Shown here: positions 4,049 to 28,777 of the stretch, piece after piece
Numbering within the stretch: the stretch's first letter is position 1
How the letters are laid out: each line of letters opens with the position of its first letter
Assembly (NCBI RefSeq): GCF_001879695.1
Contig: NZ_MNBL01000072.1
Coordinates: forward strand, 1 to 42,101
Origin: Nioella sediminis
GTDB lineage: Bacteria; Pseudomonadota; Alphaproteobacteria; Rhodobacterales; Rhodobacteraceae
Direction of reading: 5' to 3'
DNA: 42,101 bases
Program-made: the position numbers and the translations under genes
The notes under the pieces: model-generated
Seen by the model: the letters and a program-made list of their open reading frames with translations, nothing else
Database searches by the model: none
What the model was told of the DNA's origin: nothing

Positions 4049-4097
4049 AAAAAGAAAAAGGCGGTGACACCCAGGGAGGAGGAGGGGTGTCACCGCC
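4049..4097 (-). terminator. Rho-independent terminator of the DUF1127/cuckoo transcript
   Basis: On the minus strand a perfect 13-bp GC-rich stem with a 12-base loop is followed directly by a run of ten T broken by one C. The opposite side has no T-run, so it serves the minus strand only. It is unusual that the terminator loop itself carries the anti-SD motif. Confidence 0.9.
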
Positions 4098-4136
4098 AGA
4101 TCTCAGCGTCCTTAAAGGGAGGAGGAGGAACGCCGA
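4060..4136 (-). ncRNA. Cuckoo RNA unit 6 (last, ends at the terminator)
   Basis: The first hairpin is weak (4103-4111 with 4127-4136, one bulge, one G-U). The second is a perfect 13-bp stem (4060-4072 with 4085-4097) whose 12-base loop carries the CTCCTCCTCCC motif. That last hairpin doubles as the terminator stem. Confidence 0.72.
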
Positions 4137-4142
4137 ATTGTG

Positions 4143-4177
4143 GGGCCGATTGGTAAGGGAGGAGATCCGCCCGGCCC
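4143..4177 (-). ncRNA. Cuckoo-type single hairpin (degenerate unit 5)
   Basis: A 6-bp stem (4143-4148 with 4172-4177) closes a larger loop of 23 bases that still holds CTCCTCCC on the minus strand. It lacks a partner hairpin of its own, so it may be a decaying or partly deleted unit. Confidence 0.55.
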
Positions 4178-4189
4178 GTATTTTGTGAG

Positions 4190-4261
4190 GCGGCGGCGCC
4201 AGGGAGGAGGAGAGGCGCCGCCGCGTCATACCGGGCCCTGGGGGAGGAGTCGGACCCGTAT
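4190..4261 (-). ncRNA. Cuckoo RNA unit 4
   Basis: Hairpin 4228-4238 with 4252-4261 (one bulge and one G-U on the minus strand) carries CTCCTCCCC. Hairpin 4190-4200 with 4214-4224 is a perfect 11-bp GC-only stem of the same sequence as the second hairpin of unit 1, with an identical 13-base loop. The reuse of a whole hairpin argues for duplication. Confidence 0.73.
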
Positions 4262-4289
4262 GCGTTGCCCCGTCGGGGGCGGAATATCG

Positions 4290-4360
4290 GGCGGCGACAC
4301 CGGGGAGGATGAGAGGTGCCGCCGCCAATCTACGGACCTAAGGGAGGAGGACGGTCCGTA
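4290..4360 (-). ncRNA. Cuckoo RNA unit 3 (one loop altered)
   Basis: Hairpin 4331-4338 with 4353-4360 is a perfect 8 bp. Hairpin 4290-4301 with 4315-4326 is 12 bp with one G-U on the minus strand. The loop of the second reads GGGGAGGATGAG on the plus strand, so its motif is CTCATCCTCCCC: the anti-SD motif is interrupted by one base while the stem is kept. Confidence 0.72.
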
Positions 4361-4388
4361 ACTGGTGCCCGCGAGGGGCGGTATTTCG

Positions 4389-4462
4389 GGCGATGACACC
4401 AAGGGAGGAGGAGGTGCCACCGCCAGTCTACGAACCCTCAAGGGAGGAGGAGAGGTTCCGTA
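4389..4462 (-). ncRNA. Cuckoo RNA unit 2
   Basis: Hairpin 4429-4436 with 4454-4462 (8 bp, one bulge), then hairpin 4389-4400 with 4413-4424 (12 bp, two A-C oppositions on the plus strand that are G-U in the minus RNA). Both loops keep CTCCTCC. A short GC-rich spacer with its own GCCC/GGGC complementarity separates it from unit 1. Confidence 0.75.
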
Positions 4463-4494
4463 TCCTGTCTGCCCGCGAAGGGCCTTGTCTTTCG

Positions 4495-4564
4495 GCGGCG
4501 GCGCCAGGGAGGAGGAGAGGCGCCGCCGCAGGGCTGCCGGTTAAAGGGAGGAGGAAACCGGCAG
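4495..4564 (-). ncRNA. Cuckoo RNA unit 1 (first after the DUF1127 gene)
   Basis: Two hairpins. The first has a perfect 9-bp stem (4556-4564 with 4534-4542) and a 13-base loop. The second has a perfect 11-bp GC-only stem (4519-4529 with 4495-4505) and a 13-base loop. Both loops read CTCCTCCC-like on the minus strand. This resembles one R. sphaeroides CcsR RNA. Confidence 0.75.
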
Positions 4565-4582
4565 TGTTCAATGTCGTGTCGG

Positions 4583-4804
4583 TCAGTCGATCTGACCGTA
4601 GGCCGCCTCATGCGCGATGGCGCGGATGGAGGCTCGGGAAATACCCAGGTCGTTCAGGTCGCGGTCGCTCAGCTCGCGCAGTTCGGTCAGCGTGTTGCGA
4701 TAGATGCGCCATGCGGCGTATGCTTCTGCGGCTTGCTCGCGGATTTCTGCGAAACGGTCCAGCAGCGAGAGCGAGCCGGTATGGGTTTGGGTTGCGTAGG
4801 CCAT
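4583..4804 (-). CDS. DUF1127 protein, CcaF1-like RNA-binding protein
   Basis: A 73-residue protein with the DUF1127 signature in its C-terminal half: TLTELRELSDRDLNDLGISR near residues 38-57, then ASIRAIAHEAAYG. DUF1127 proteins are small, arginine-rich and helical. The R. sphaeroides member CcaF1 is an RNA-binding protein that is co-transcribed with the CcsR small RNAs and affects their processing. The stop codon lies 19 bases before the first hairpin of the same kind of array, so the assignment to this system rests on both sequence and context. An AAGGA-type ribosome site precedes the ATG. Stress induction, as in Rhodobacter, is inferred. Confidence 0.9.
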   Translation of the reverse strand: MAYATQTHTGSLSLLDRFAEIREQAAEAYAAWRIYRNTLTELRELSDRDLNDLGISRASIRAIAHEAAYGQID

Positions 4805-4896: not shown

Positions 4897-4924
4897 AAAA
4901 TATCGCAATGCTGCGTCTGCACAA
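4897..4924 (-). promoter_or_regulatory. Candidate promoter of the DUF1127/cuckoo operon
   Basis: On the minus strand TTGTGC (4919-4924) and TATTTT (4897-4902) stand 16 bases apart, about 90 bp before the DUF1127 start. In R. sphaeroides the equivalent operon uses heat-shock-type sigma factors (RpoHI/RpoHII); whether these boxes fit those factors cannot be decided by eye. Confidence 0.3.
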
Positions 4925-4971
4925 TCCCCGAGTTCATCAATGCTGCCATGCAGAAAGTGCATAACGTGGAC

Positions 4972-6201: not shown

Positions 6202-6259
6202 CGGGGCCGGTTCGGGCGCGGAATGAGCCGCTACCGAAGCTGGAAAATCATGGGAATTG

Positions 6260-6290
6260 CCCCCGGATCGCCCCGCGACCGGGGGTTTTT
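6260..6290 (+). terminator. Rho-independent terminator after mrp
   Basis: CCCCCGG (6260-6266) pairs with CCGGGGG (6279-6285), followed by five T (6286-6290). It lies 58 bp after the mrp stop and separates it from the dcw leader. Confidence 0.85.
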
Positions 6291-6331
6291 CGTGGAAAAC
6301 TGGAAAAAAATCCCATGCCGTGTGGCGCAAG

Positions 6332-6443
6332 AAACACAGCCATATCTTGTGGTTTGCCCTTCCGGCCCCACTCCATCTGCGCAAATCACGGTGATTTCAC
6401 CCCCAAGATGCTGTGTTTTGGGATGGCTCTCGGCAAGATATGG
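6332..6443. repeat. Overlapping inverted repeats upstream of mraZ (two alternative pairings)
   Basis: The segment 6332-6349 can pair in two ways. AAACACAGC plus ATCTTG pairs with CAAGATGCTGTGTTT (6404-6418; 15 bp with a 3-base bulge). CCATATCTTG (6340-6349) pairs perfectly with CAAGATATGG (6434-6443). The two pairings share bases and exclude each other. A smaller palindrome, GGTGATTTCACC, sits at 6390-6401. If the region is transcribed this could switch; if not, the repeats may be protein sites. Confidence 0.5.
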
Positions 6444-6485
6444 GGAATTTTCCCACAAAAAGGGATTGATTGGGAAAACGTTCCA
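6441..6485. promoter_or_regulatory. MraZ-type operator: 10-bp-phased TGGGN boxes
   Basis: Five-base boxes start exactly every 10 bp: TGGGG (6441), TCCCA (6451, inverted), AGGGA (6461), TGGGA (6471), TTCCA (6481, inverted TGGAA). MraZ of E. coli binds TGGGN direct repeats separated by 5 bases in the dcw promoter, so this is the expected operator for autoregulation. A weak promoter reading overlaps it (TTGATT at 6466, 17 bases, GACAAC at 6489). Confidence 0.6.
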
Positions 6486-6489
6486 TGAG

Positions 6490-6720
6490 ACAACAATCAC
6501 ACAGCAAACGAGATCACCGGGACCAAGGCGCAAGACCAAGGACCGGAAAACAAAAAACGGCAGTTTCATACAGGCAATCTCATTCGCTGACATAGAGAGA
6601 TCCGGCGCGCGGGCAGAGCAGACATCCCCCCCCAGGTAATGCGCGCGTAGTCGGACACCCCAGAAATGGGACGAGGGCGGCGGATTGAGCAGTGGCAGCT
6701 TGCTCGATCCGCCGTTGTCC
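6490..6720 (+). ncRNA. Extended mraZ 5' leader, candidate UpsM small RNA
   Basis: About 230-270 bp between the MraZ-type boxes and mraZ have no convincing gene. In Rhodobacter sphaeroides the dcw cluster is preceded by an unusually long leader that yields the abundant small RNA UpsM of about 200 nt, conserved in the family. Here the position, length and a strong 3' hairpin (6679-6713) fit. The 5' end is a guess from the operator position. No sequence comparison with UpsM could be made. Confidence 0.5.
6679..6713 (+). terminator. Strong leader hairpin before mraZ (partial terminator or processing site)
   Basis: A 13-bp stem pairs 6679-6691 with 6701-6713 around a 9-base loop. The only non-Watson-Crick pair is T-G, a G-U in plus-strand RNA, so selection acted on a plus-strand transcript. 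A weak pyrimidine run (GTTGTCCTTT) follows, so it may terminate part of transcription and set the 3' end of an UpsM-like RNA. Confidence 0.6.
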
Positions 6721-27178: not shown

Positions 27179-28777
27179 ATGACCCTGAATTTGACCATGC
27201 CGGATCAACCGGACCTGAAGCCGCGCATCACCGTGTTTGGCGTTGGCGGGGCAGGCGGCAATGCCGTCAACAACATGATCGACCAAGAGCTTGACGGCTG
27301 CGAATTCGTGGTCGCCAACACCGATGCGCAGGCATTGCAGCATTCCAAATCCTCCTCTCGCATCCAGATGGGCGCGAAAGTGACGGAAGGTCTTGGCGCG
27401 GGTGCGCGCCCTGCCGTGGGCGCCTCTGCCGCCGAGGAAAGCATCGAGACCATCGTGGATCACCTCGTCGGCGCGCATATGTGCTTCATCACCGCCGGGA
27501 TGGGCGGCGGCACCGGCACCGGCGCAGCCCCGATCATCGCACAGGCCGCCCGTGAACTGGGTGTGCTGACCGTCGGCGTCGTGACCAAGCCCTTCCAGTT
27601 CGAAGGCGCCAAGCGCATGCGCCAGGCCGATGAGGGCATCGAGGCGCTGCAAAAGGTCGTTGACACGCTGATCATCATTCCCAACCAGAACCTGTTCCGG
27701 CTGGCCAATGAAAAGACCACCTTCACCGAAGCCTTCGCGCTGGCCGATGACGTGCTCTACCAGGGCGTCAAGGGTGTGACCGACCTGATGGTCCGTCCAG
27801 GCCTGATCAACCTCGATTTCGCCGACGTGCGCGCGGTGATGAACGAGATGGGCAAGGCGATGATGGGCACCGGCGAAAGCGAGGGCGAAGATCGCGCGGT
27901 TCAGGCCGCCGAGCGCGCCATTGCCAACCCGCTGCTCGATGAAATCAGCCTCAAGGGCGCCCGTGGCGTGCTGATCAACATCACCGGCGGCTATGACCTG
28001 ACGCTGTTCGAACTGGATGAAGCCGCCAACCGCATCCGCGAGGAAGTGGACCCGGAGGCCAATATCATCGTTGGCTCCACCCTCGATACCGAGATGGAAG
28101 GCAAGATGCGCGTGTCCGTCGTGGCCACCGGCATCGACGCCGCCGAGATCCATCAGGACATTCCGGCACCGATGCGCCGCCTGCACACGGACTCGGTTGC
28201 CATGTCGGGCCGGGGCAGTGCCGCCGCTGCGGCTGCTCCGATGATGCTGGAAGAAGAGATCGAGGAAGACCAGCCCGCAGCCACGCCGGAACCCAGCCTC
28301 TTTACCCGCTTCGATGCGGAAACCGCCCATGAACAGGCAGAAGACCTGTTCGAAGAGGATGACAGCATTCCGGCCCCGGCCTATACGCCTCAGGTGGCCG
28401 AATCCGCTCCGGCCCCGCGTCCGGAGGCTCGCGTCGCTTCCGAACCGGTTGAGGAAGAGTACGTCGCCCCGCGCGCCAACAAGGGTCATCCGACCCCGGA
28501 AACGCTGGCCCGCCTGCGCGATGCGATTGCAAAGGACCGTGGCAATGCGCCCCGTGCCGCCACCCCGGCCCCCGAGGCGGAGGATCACGGCAGCAGATCG
28601 CGCTTCGGCATCAACTCGCTGCTCAACCGCATGACCGGCCATGGCGAAGAGGCCCCGGTGCCCACACAGCGCCGTCAGCCAAGCATGCAGTCGCGCACCC
28701 ATCACGAGGATGACCAGGTCGATCCCGAGCAAGACCGGATCGAGATCCCGGCCTTCCTGCGCCGTCAGGCGAACTGA
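27179..28777 (+). CDS. ftsZ: Cell division GTPase FtsZ
   Basis: Tubulin-like GTPase forming the Z-ring at midcell. The 532-residue protein has [16 protein letters not shown], the tubulin signature GMGGGTGTG near 107-115, and [11 protein letters not shown] in the synergy region. The core ends near residue 320; a long, acidic, low-complexity linker of about 190 residues follows, and the tail [10 protein letters not shown] is the conserved C-terminal peptide that binds FtsA and other partners. The long linker is usual in alphaproteobacteria. A strong terminator follows. Confidence 0.98.

Follow-up and report, generated by a model that had tools for sequence, protein, structure and literature searches.

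A DUF1127 gene followed by eleven anti-Shine-Dalgarno hairpins in Nioella sediminis, and its candidate LsrB/VtlR-type promoter

We analysed a 42,101-nt stretch (the window) of the 3.96-Mb genome of Nioella sediminis, in which a short DUF1127 gene is followed on the same, minus strand by eleven hairpins with TCCTCCC loops (UCCUCCC in RNA). Judged from sequence comparison, this array is probably the 3´ UTR of a ccaF1-like DUF1127 mRNA and a precursor of anti-Shine-Dalgarno (anti-SD) small RNAs, under control of the LsrB/VtlR type. It belongs to the described cuckoo/CcsR RNAs of the CIN1 locus: at least two hairpins with CCUCCUCCC-type loops are adjacent, the loop is kept while the stems stay paired, and a DUF1127 gene lies beside them. 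The features of the locus, all on the minus strand, are the following.

4938-4962, minus strand: first promoter element ATGCA-N5-TGCATGGCAGCATTG, candidate LsrB/VtlR operator, with TGCA-N6-GCAT at 4948-4961 (from 80 upstream regions)
4908-4924, minus strand: second promoter element TTGTGCAGACGCAGCAT, conserved upstream; its TGCA-N6-GCAT box (4908-4921) overlaps the candidate -35 TTG (4922-4924)
4583-4804, minus strand: DUF1127 gene, 73 aa, CcaF1-like (Pfam PF06568, E 3.6e-12; 37-99% identity to 18 array-adjoining homologues in relatives)
4535-4563, minus strand: hairpin 1 (pair 1), by motif/stem detection and covariance model
4494-4529, minus strand: hairpin 2 (pair 1), 36-nt identity with hairpin 8, by repeat, motif/stem detection and covariance model
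4431-4460, minus strand: hairpin 3 (pair 2), by motif/stem detection and covariance model
4389-4424, minus strand: hairpin 4 (pair 2), by motif/stem detection and covariance model
4331-4360, minus strand: hairpin 5 (pair 3), by motif/stem detection and covariance model
4290-4326, minus strand: hairpin 6 (pair 3), one loop substitution (CAUCCUCCCC) absent from the relatives' orthologous loops, by motif/stem detection and covariance model
4229-4260, minus strand: hairpin 7 (pair 4), by motif/stem detection, missed by covariance model
4189-4224, minus strand: hairpin 8 (pair 4), identical to hairpin 2, by repeat, motif/stem detection and covariance model
4143-4177, minus strand: hairpin 9, single, bulged stem, by motif/stem detection, missed by covariance model
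4104-4135, minus strand: hairpin 10 (pair 5), by motif/stem detection and covariance model
4060-4097, minus strand: hairpin 11 (pair 5), 13-bp stem, by motif/stem detection and covariance model
4049-4059, minus strand: T-run 3´ of hairpin 11, intrinsic terminator of the operon

All eleven loops between 4049 and 4564 are enclosed by stems (an overlapping one-mismatch candidate at 4255-4304 was dropped from the set), and ten of them read CTCCTCCC. This word occurs twelve times on the two strands of the window, ten times inside the array, against a mean of 2.1 and a largest count of 7 in whole-window shuffles. The fold of 4049-4575 has a z-score of -10.3, none of 100 shuffles being equally stable. 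The preliminary description of an eleven-hairpin array behind a DUF1127 gene is thus confirmed, and its five pairs plus one single hairpin fit the layout as well, four pairs being followed by the single hairpin 9 and a last pair. A covariance model trained on 26 hairpins of relatives (close ones included; one hairpin has the same sequence as hairpins 2 and 8) recovers nine of the eleven at E <= 0.01 and finds no further match below E 0.19 in the rest of the window. Rfam at gathering thresholds gave no match anywhere in the window.

Two details of the array had been singled out before. The loop of hairpin 6 (4302-4314), taken to be interrupted, does deviate; the deviation is a single substitution, CTCATCCTCCCC in place of the CTCCTCCTCCCC read by two close relatives. 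The exact reuse of one hairpin is borne out, hairpins 2 and 8 being identical over 36 nt (4189-4224 and 4494-4529). Since their counterparts are also mutually identical in both close relatives, no recent copying took place in the Nioella genome, and the identity reflects an old copy, constraint or conversion rather than a new duplication. The spacers between pairs 1 to 4 (4261-4289, 4361-4388 and 4461-4493) carry short inverted repeats of the GCCC...GGGC type that recur with the units, two of the three forming a direct-repeat family; these repeats are possibly a processing signal.

In Rhodobacter sphaeroides, the CIN1 locus likewise contains a short DUF1127 gene, ccaF1 (RSP_6037), of 71 aa against 73 in the window. 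Anti-SD hairpin RNAs come after it, with a Rho-independent terminator at the 3´ end, and the homology of arrangement that had been proposed is right. There the RNAs are four, CcsR1-4, reportedly with two hairpins each, whereas the window holds five pairs and a single hairpin instead of four units. The Cuckoo RNA family, or alpha-r14 (NfeR1, SmelA075, SmelA099), shares the adjacent hairpins, anti-SD loops and variable stems. Its rhizobial members, as printed, have two, three or four hairpins, while the DUF1127 3´ UTR arrays described here have up to 23; NfeR1 has its own sigma-70 promoter, whereas our array stands in the 3´ UTR behind DUF1127.

Conservation across relatives separates the loop from the stem. 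Of 562 CTCCTCCC sites within arrays, 67% are flanked by an uninterrupted helix of at least 7 bp, a proportion that falls to 13% when 3´ flanks are swapped among sites and to 5% with shuffled flanks. Evidently, the loop stays constant and every stem retains a pairing partner of its own. Outside the arrays of the same loci, only 3 such sites have a helix of this length. Among the 26 hairpins chosen for pairing, nine of nine pairs change on both sides, a figure biased by that choice. Stems kept around a changing loop, named beforehand as the observation that would speak against the array, are the opposite of what these 562 sites display, namely fixed loops with covarying stems.

The association with DUF1127 was followed in two samples. 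In the first (the N. sediminis genome and 40 relatives), clustered matches to TCCTCCC-N28-58-TCCTCCC formed 18 stretches in 17 genomes, each with a DUF1127 gene just 5´ of the array and with 4 to 15 hairpins, isolated hits outside the array being left out. Seven of the 25 family genomes (G006, G009, G013, G019, G020, G022 and G024) gave only 0-2 matches to this two-loop pattern. A 1.4-Mb genome of another family (G029) has twelve loose two-loop matches, 2 forward and 10 reverse, and none to the stricter pattern. The second sample comprised the best 80 of 276 loci encoding a DUF1127 relative, at least six of which repeat genomes of the first. An array starts within 250 nt of the DUF1127 gene in 78 of these 80, which is not a rate for all DUF1127 genes, the loci having been picked by similarity to the protein of the window. 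Its closest relatives among them come from Nioella sp. MMSF_3534 (99% identical) and N. ostreopsis (90%). Two loci, L115 and L121, have no array beside DUF1127; L115 (377-586) nevertheless retains both conserved promoter elements and is a natural array-less case. One locus (L016) alternates four DUF1127-like ORFs with groups of hairpins, and another genome carries two separate DUF1127-plus-array loci with 6 and 7 hairpins (L021 and L022). Among 240 genomes drawn evenly across the class, 12 have two linked CCTCCTCCC, including 3/3 of the same family and 9/237 others; eight of these nine have a single match and one has four, on four contigs.

Hairpin numbers were obtained for 76 of the 80 loci, four that end less than 300 nt after the last hairpin being left out. 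The detector accepted exact TCCTCCC loops, together with one-mismatch loops holding CCTCC in stems of at least 8 bp; in L118 and L129 its counts may be one or two too high where stems overlap. Two loci have no hairpin; 2, 3 and 4 hairpins are found in one locus each, 5 in three, 6 in 17, 7 in 18, 8 in 13, 9 in three, 10 in six, 11 in five, 12 in three, and 13, 15 and 23 in one each. Arrays therefore span 2 to 23 hairpins, and the median over the 76 loci is 7. The preliminary description had presented the array as expanded; with at least eleven hairpins in 11/76 loci and more than eleven in 6/76, it lies in the upper part of the normal range, high but not exceptional. A recount by covariance model in 26 chosen loci gave 145 hairpins, every one of them 3´ of DUF1127 on the strand of the array; the two array-less loci gave none. 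Built from 13-nt loops, the model undercounts L120, where it sees just 6 of 23 hairpins, and for this reason copy numbers were taken from the motif-and-stem detector.

How such arrays grow is visible in three relatives. A four-hairpin unit of 174 nt occurs in 3.7 copies in Loktanella atrilutea (L120, 23 hairpins), a two-hairpin unit of 99 nt in 3.6 copies in Stagnihabitans tardus (L118), and a unit of 104 nt in 4.6 copies in Roseicyclus sp. Amp-Y-6 (L062), each at 94%. The array of the window bears just an older-looking trace of a 99-nt repeat (2.5 copies, 77%). Growth by unit duplication, as suggested earlier, is thus a mode of the family, and the window itself shows no clear recent instance of it.

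The first hairpin begins about 20 nt behind the DUF1127 gene. In 50 of 74 loci the last hairpin has a T-run close by, as against only 13 of 511 inner hairpins. This terminator at the end, together with the conserved promoter upstream of DUF1127, argues for one precursor transcript. The Mrp gene of the window has a homologue in 73/80 locus fragments. GGAGG was found at none of the 80 DUF1127 starts; as a sign that DUF1127 avoids a strong SD of its own this is uninformative, GGAGG being equally missing from all 77 starts of neighbouring genes. Elsewhere in the window, 6202-6691 is an intergenic stretch upstream of a gene read as mraZ; the mraZ leader of R. sphaeroides gives rise to the sRNA UpsM (PMC5089854).

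The promoter region is strongly conserved. The word pairs ATGC-GCAT, ATGC-CATT and ATGC-ATTG recur at fixed spacing in 54-57 of 80 upstream regions, compared with at most 4 after shuffling. They belong to the first element, in full ATGCA-N5-TGCAT-n-GC-n-GCATTG, whose best match reaches 14-20 of 20 positions in the 80 loci (shuffles at most 14). By this full 25-nt element, the DUF1127-array operon is the sole strong site in the genome: the perfect match is unique, and one other site lies within 3 mismatches. That site (G000:C124:170-194) is at a contig edge, near ORFs that we read as CitE/malyl-CoA-lyase-like and carboxyltransferase-like. The second element, ATTGTGCA-N2-CGCAGCATT, begins 37 or 38 nt past the start of the first in 76/80 loci, and TTGTGCA stands at this same distance of 37-38 nt in 76/80. 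The box TGCA-N6-GCAT occurs in 72/80 upstream regions and in 1/148 other stretches, 20 dinucleotide shuffles giving at most 5/80; two strict boxes 39-40 nt apart are present in 29/80 loci. This short box is less specific than the full element, a third copy lying at 28172-28185 of the window. In the two-hairpin loci of the outgroup genomes G033 and G167 the box match is weak (2 mismatches).

The sequence of these boxes resembles that of the LsrB/VtlR regulon, as does, on an assumed start site, the position of the first. The VtlR motif of Brucella is CAATGCAGCCATGCA (PMC12595884), and its reverse complement, TGCATGGCTGCATTG, is one base off the TGCATGGCAGCATTG of the window. With up to 2 mismatches it is found in 59/80 upstream regions against 0/148 other stretches, shuffles giving at most 1. 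The strict consensus GCAT-N3-TG-N3-T, described for the abcR1 promoter, where the LsrB box spans -61 to -49 and most sequences carry T-N11-A motifs in tandem (PMC8844928), and also given in PMC7486931, is not enriched in the same regions (10/80, shuffles up to 8), the window having AG for TG. The LsrB box of NfeR1 is TGCA-N6-GCAT within -72 to -60 (PMC10746234). Taking the TTG of the second element as -36 to -34, where RpoH promoters need it (PMC3441632), puts the first box at roughly -72 to -59, the position of the NfeR1 box; on this assumed start site, its distance to the core promoter matches that in the LsrB/VtlR regulon. A TA-containing -10 region follows the TTG at about RpoH spacing. 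The TTG fits both an RpoH promoter and one controlled by a LysR-type regulator (LTTR).

A regulator of the corresponding type is present in the genome. The neighbourhood of its own trxB contains no LTTR, and the gene was therefore sought by sequence, using the trxB-adjoining LTTR of one outgroup genome (L148) as query in seven genomes, with a reverse search in 35. The query has one clear match in N. sediminis, 47% identical (E 1e-80, next 2e-38), a 300-aa protein whose best PDB match is 9HH1, the LsrB of A. tumefaciens (E 4e-72, next 3e-29). The Nioella protein and the trxB-linked LTTR of L148 (genome G028) are reciprocal best matches. Over the DNA-binding domain (first 62 residues) they agree at 48/62 positions, while L161, the second match of the N. 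sediminis genome, agrees at only 19/57. Orthologues at least 57% identical to the Nioella LTTR occur in all 25 family genomes; outgroup G033 has no close one (33-34%). In five of five further outgroup loci, as in L148, which was chosen for it, trxB adjoins the orthologue; in the 25 Rhodobacteraceae loci no trxB was seen within about 1.5 kb on each side, and in this the Nioella LTTR differs from LsrB. It differs from redox-sensing LsrB also in lacking cysteine, and with it the cysteine pairs of the effector domain (the other 24 family orthologues have 0-2 cysteines), so the thiol switch of LsrB cannot work in it. The LTTR is present as well in the seven family genomes in which the pattern showed no array, hence it either serves other functions or coexists there with arrays that the pattern overlooked. 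Print disagrees on the spread of LsrB beyond Rhizobiales, PMC11975290 calling it unique to that order.

Control of the promoter by this LsrB/VtlR-orthologous LTTR, acting at the two TGCA-N6-GCAT boxes, appears to us the most likely reading. The conserved element might instead be the operator of another regulator, such as PhaR, or part of an extended RpoH promoter, which we consider rather unlikely. The operator of PhaR is CTGC-N3/4-GCAG. This pattern does sit inside the element in 49/80 loci; conservation nevertheless reaches beyond it, each column of the upstream ATGC and the downstream CATTG being kept in 68-80 of 80 loci, against just 52/80 for the A of GCAG. As to RpoH, whose promoters require TTG at -35, the accessible text of the R. 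sphaeroides papers assigns a RpoHI/RpoHII promoter to ccaF1-CcsR, names no LTTR and describes no LsrB/VtlR-type element of the kind found in the window. An RpoH promoter, however, leaves unexplained an element starting 37-38 nt upstream of the TTG. In the text available to a limited search, which lacked key cuckoo/CcaF1 papers, LsrB/VtlR was nowhere connected with CcaF1/CcsR as its regulator; PMC12501420 contains both names, LsrB in its reference list alone.

What the loops pair with has to be weighed in the same way. Their sequence we take to be that of the 16S anti-SD, although a search with one exact 16-mer did not find the 3´ end of the organism's own 16S. Having the anti-SD sequence themselves, the loops can pair with SD sequences, not with 16S, and would compete with 16S for mRNA; of the earlier proposal that they titrate or mimic the 16S 3´ end, mimicry stands and titration falls. 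It is improbable that the array consists of RNA-stability or protein-binding elements whose CUCCUCCC loops bind the DUF1127 protein or Hfq, SD pairing being incidental. CcaF1 does bind RNA and participate in CcsR maturation, CcsR is said to interact with Hfq, and the loop motif is kept beside a DUF1127 gene in 78/80 loci; yet silencing of ntrB in S. meliloti is lost when the three identical NfeR1 loops are mutated, and NfeR1 is reported to be Hfq-independent. Little more can be said for array length as a selected dose dial set by the number of target mRNAs, which we hold to be equally doubtful. Over 18 genomes, themselves related, hairpin number does correlate with the number of GGGAGGAG-N3-11-ATG sites (rho 0.61), but a control SD, AAGGAGGA, correlates as well (rho 0.56), and so does genome size (0.61); no correlation is seen with the ratio of one SD count to the other (rho 0.29, p 0.25). 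The idea that copy number tunes dose thus receives no specific support. N. sediminis itself has 29 GGGAGGAG-N3-11-ATG sites, against 6 for the reversed pattern; one is antisense to the array, and of the remaining 28, 21 start an ORF of at least 100 aa (L052 being cut by a contig end). Among 19 of these 21 ORFs that were scanned (L031 and L050 left out), four pass the family cut-off for PaaG, PaaE, BenC or NqrE, one has a subfamily-level match (FAD-dependent oxidoreductase) and one a domain-level match (hotdog thioesterase). This list of predicted targets is not evidence, since one of this kind would arise with any strong SD.

On the preferred reading, an anti-SD precursor under LsrB/VtlR-type control, we infer the following course of events. 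A signal of stress or nutrient status, together with the LTTR and perhaps RpoH, would trigger transcription, the LTTR occupying both boxes, the second of which overlaps the TTG of the -35. One transcript would start at this promoter, with its -35 some 120 nt 5´ of the DUF1127 gene, span the gene and the eleven hairpins, and end at the terminator of hairpin 11. By analogy with R. sphaeroides, where RNase E releases CcsR1-4 from the ccaF1 3´ UTR with participation of CcaF1 (PMC10253847, PMC8625941), RNase E would cut the precursor to shorter, two-hairpin RNAs, the DUF1127 protein participating. The CUCCUCCC loops would then pair with ribosome binding sites rich in purines and prevent translation of the target mRNAs, much as the loops of NfeR1 silence ntrB at its translation start.

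The regulon of LsrB/VtlR in Rhizobiales (AbcR, NfeR1, short DUF1127 genes) has the same outputs, anti-SD RNAs and DUF1127 proteins. We infer that these outputs, separate targets in rhizobia and their relatives, form one operon here under the same regulator. We lean slightly towards a wider view, in which Rhodobacteraceae have fused both outputs in one operon under an LsrB/VtlR orthologue, cysteine-free in Nioella, and the array acts as an evolving amplifier for an old alphaproteobacterial switch, gaining and losing two- or four-hairpin units through tandem duplication.

The array extends a known family, whose range of copy numbers is now quantified; the promoter result matters more than the array itself. 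If true, it would join two literatures, that of CcaF1/CcsR and RpoH in R. sphaeroides and that of AbcR, NfeR1, DUF1127 and LsrB/VtlR in rhizobia and Brucella, and would name both a candidate regulator and a reason why DUF1127 genes and anti-SD RNAs travel together. The putative switch of the array resembles the one that governs RNAs of a related kind in distantly related nitrogen fixers and pathogens.
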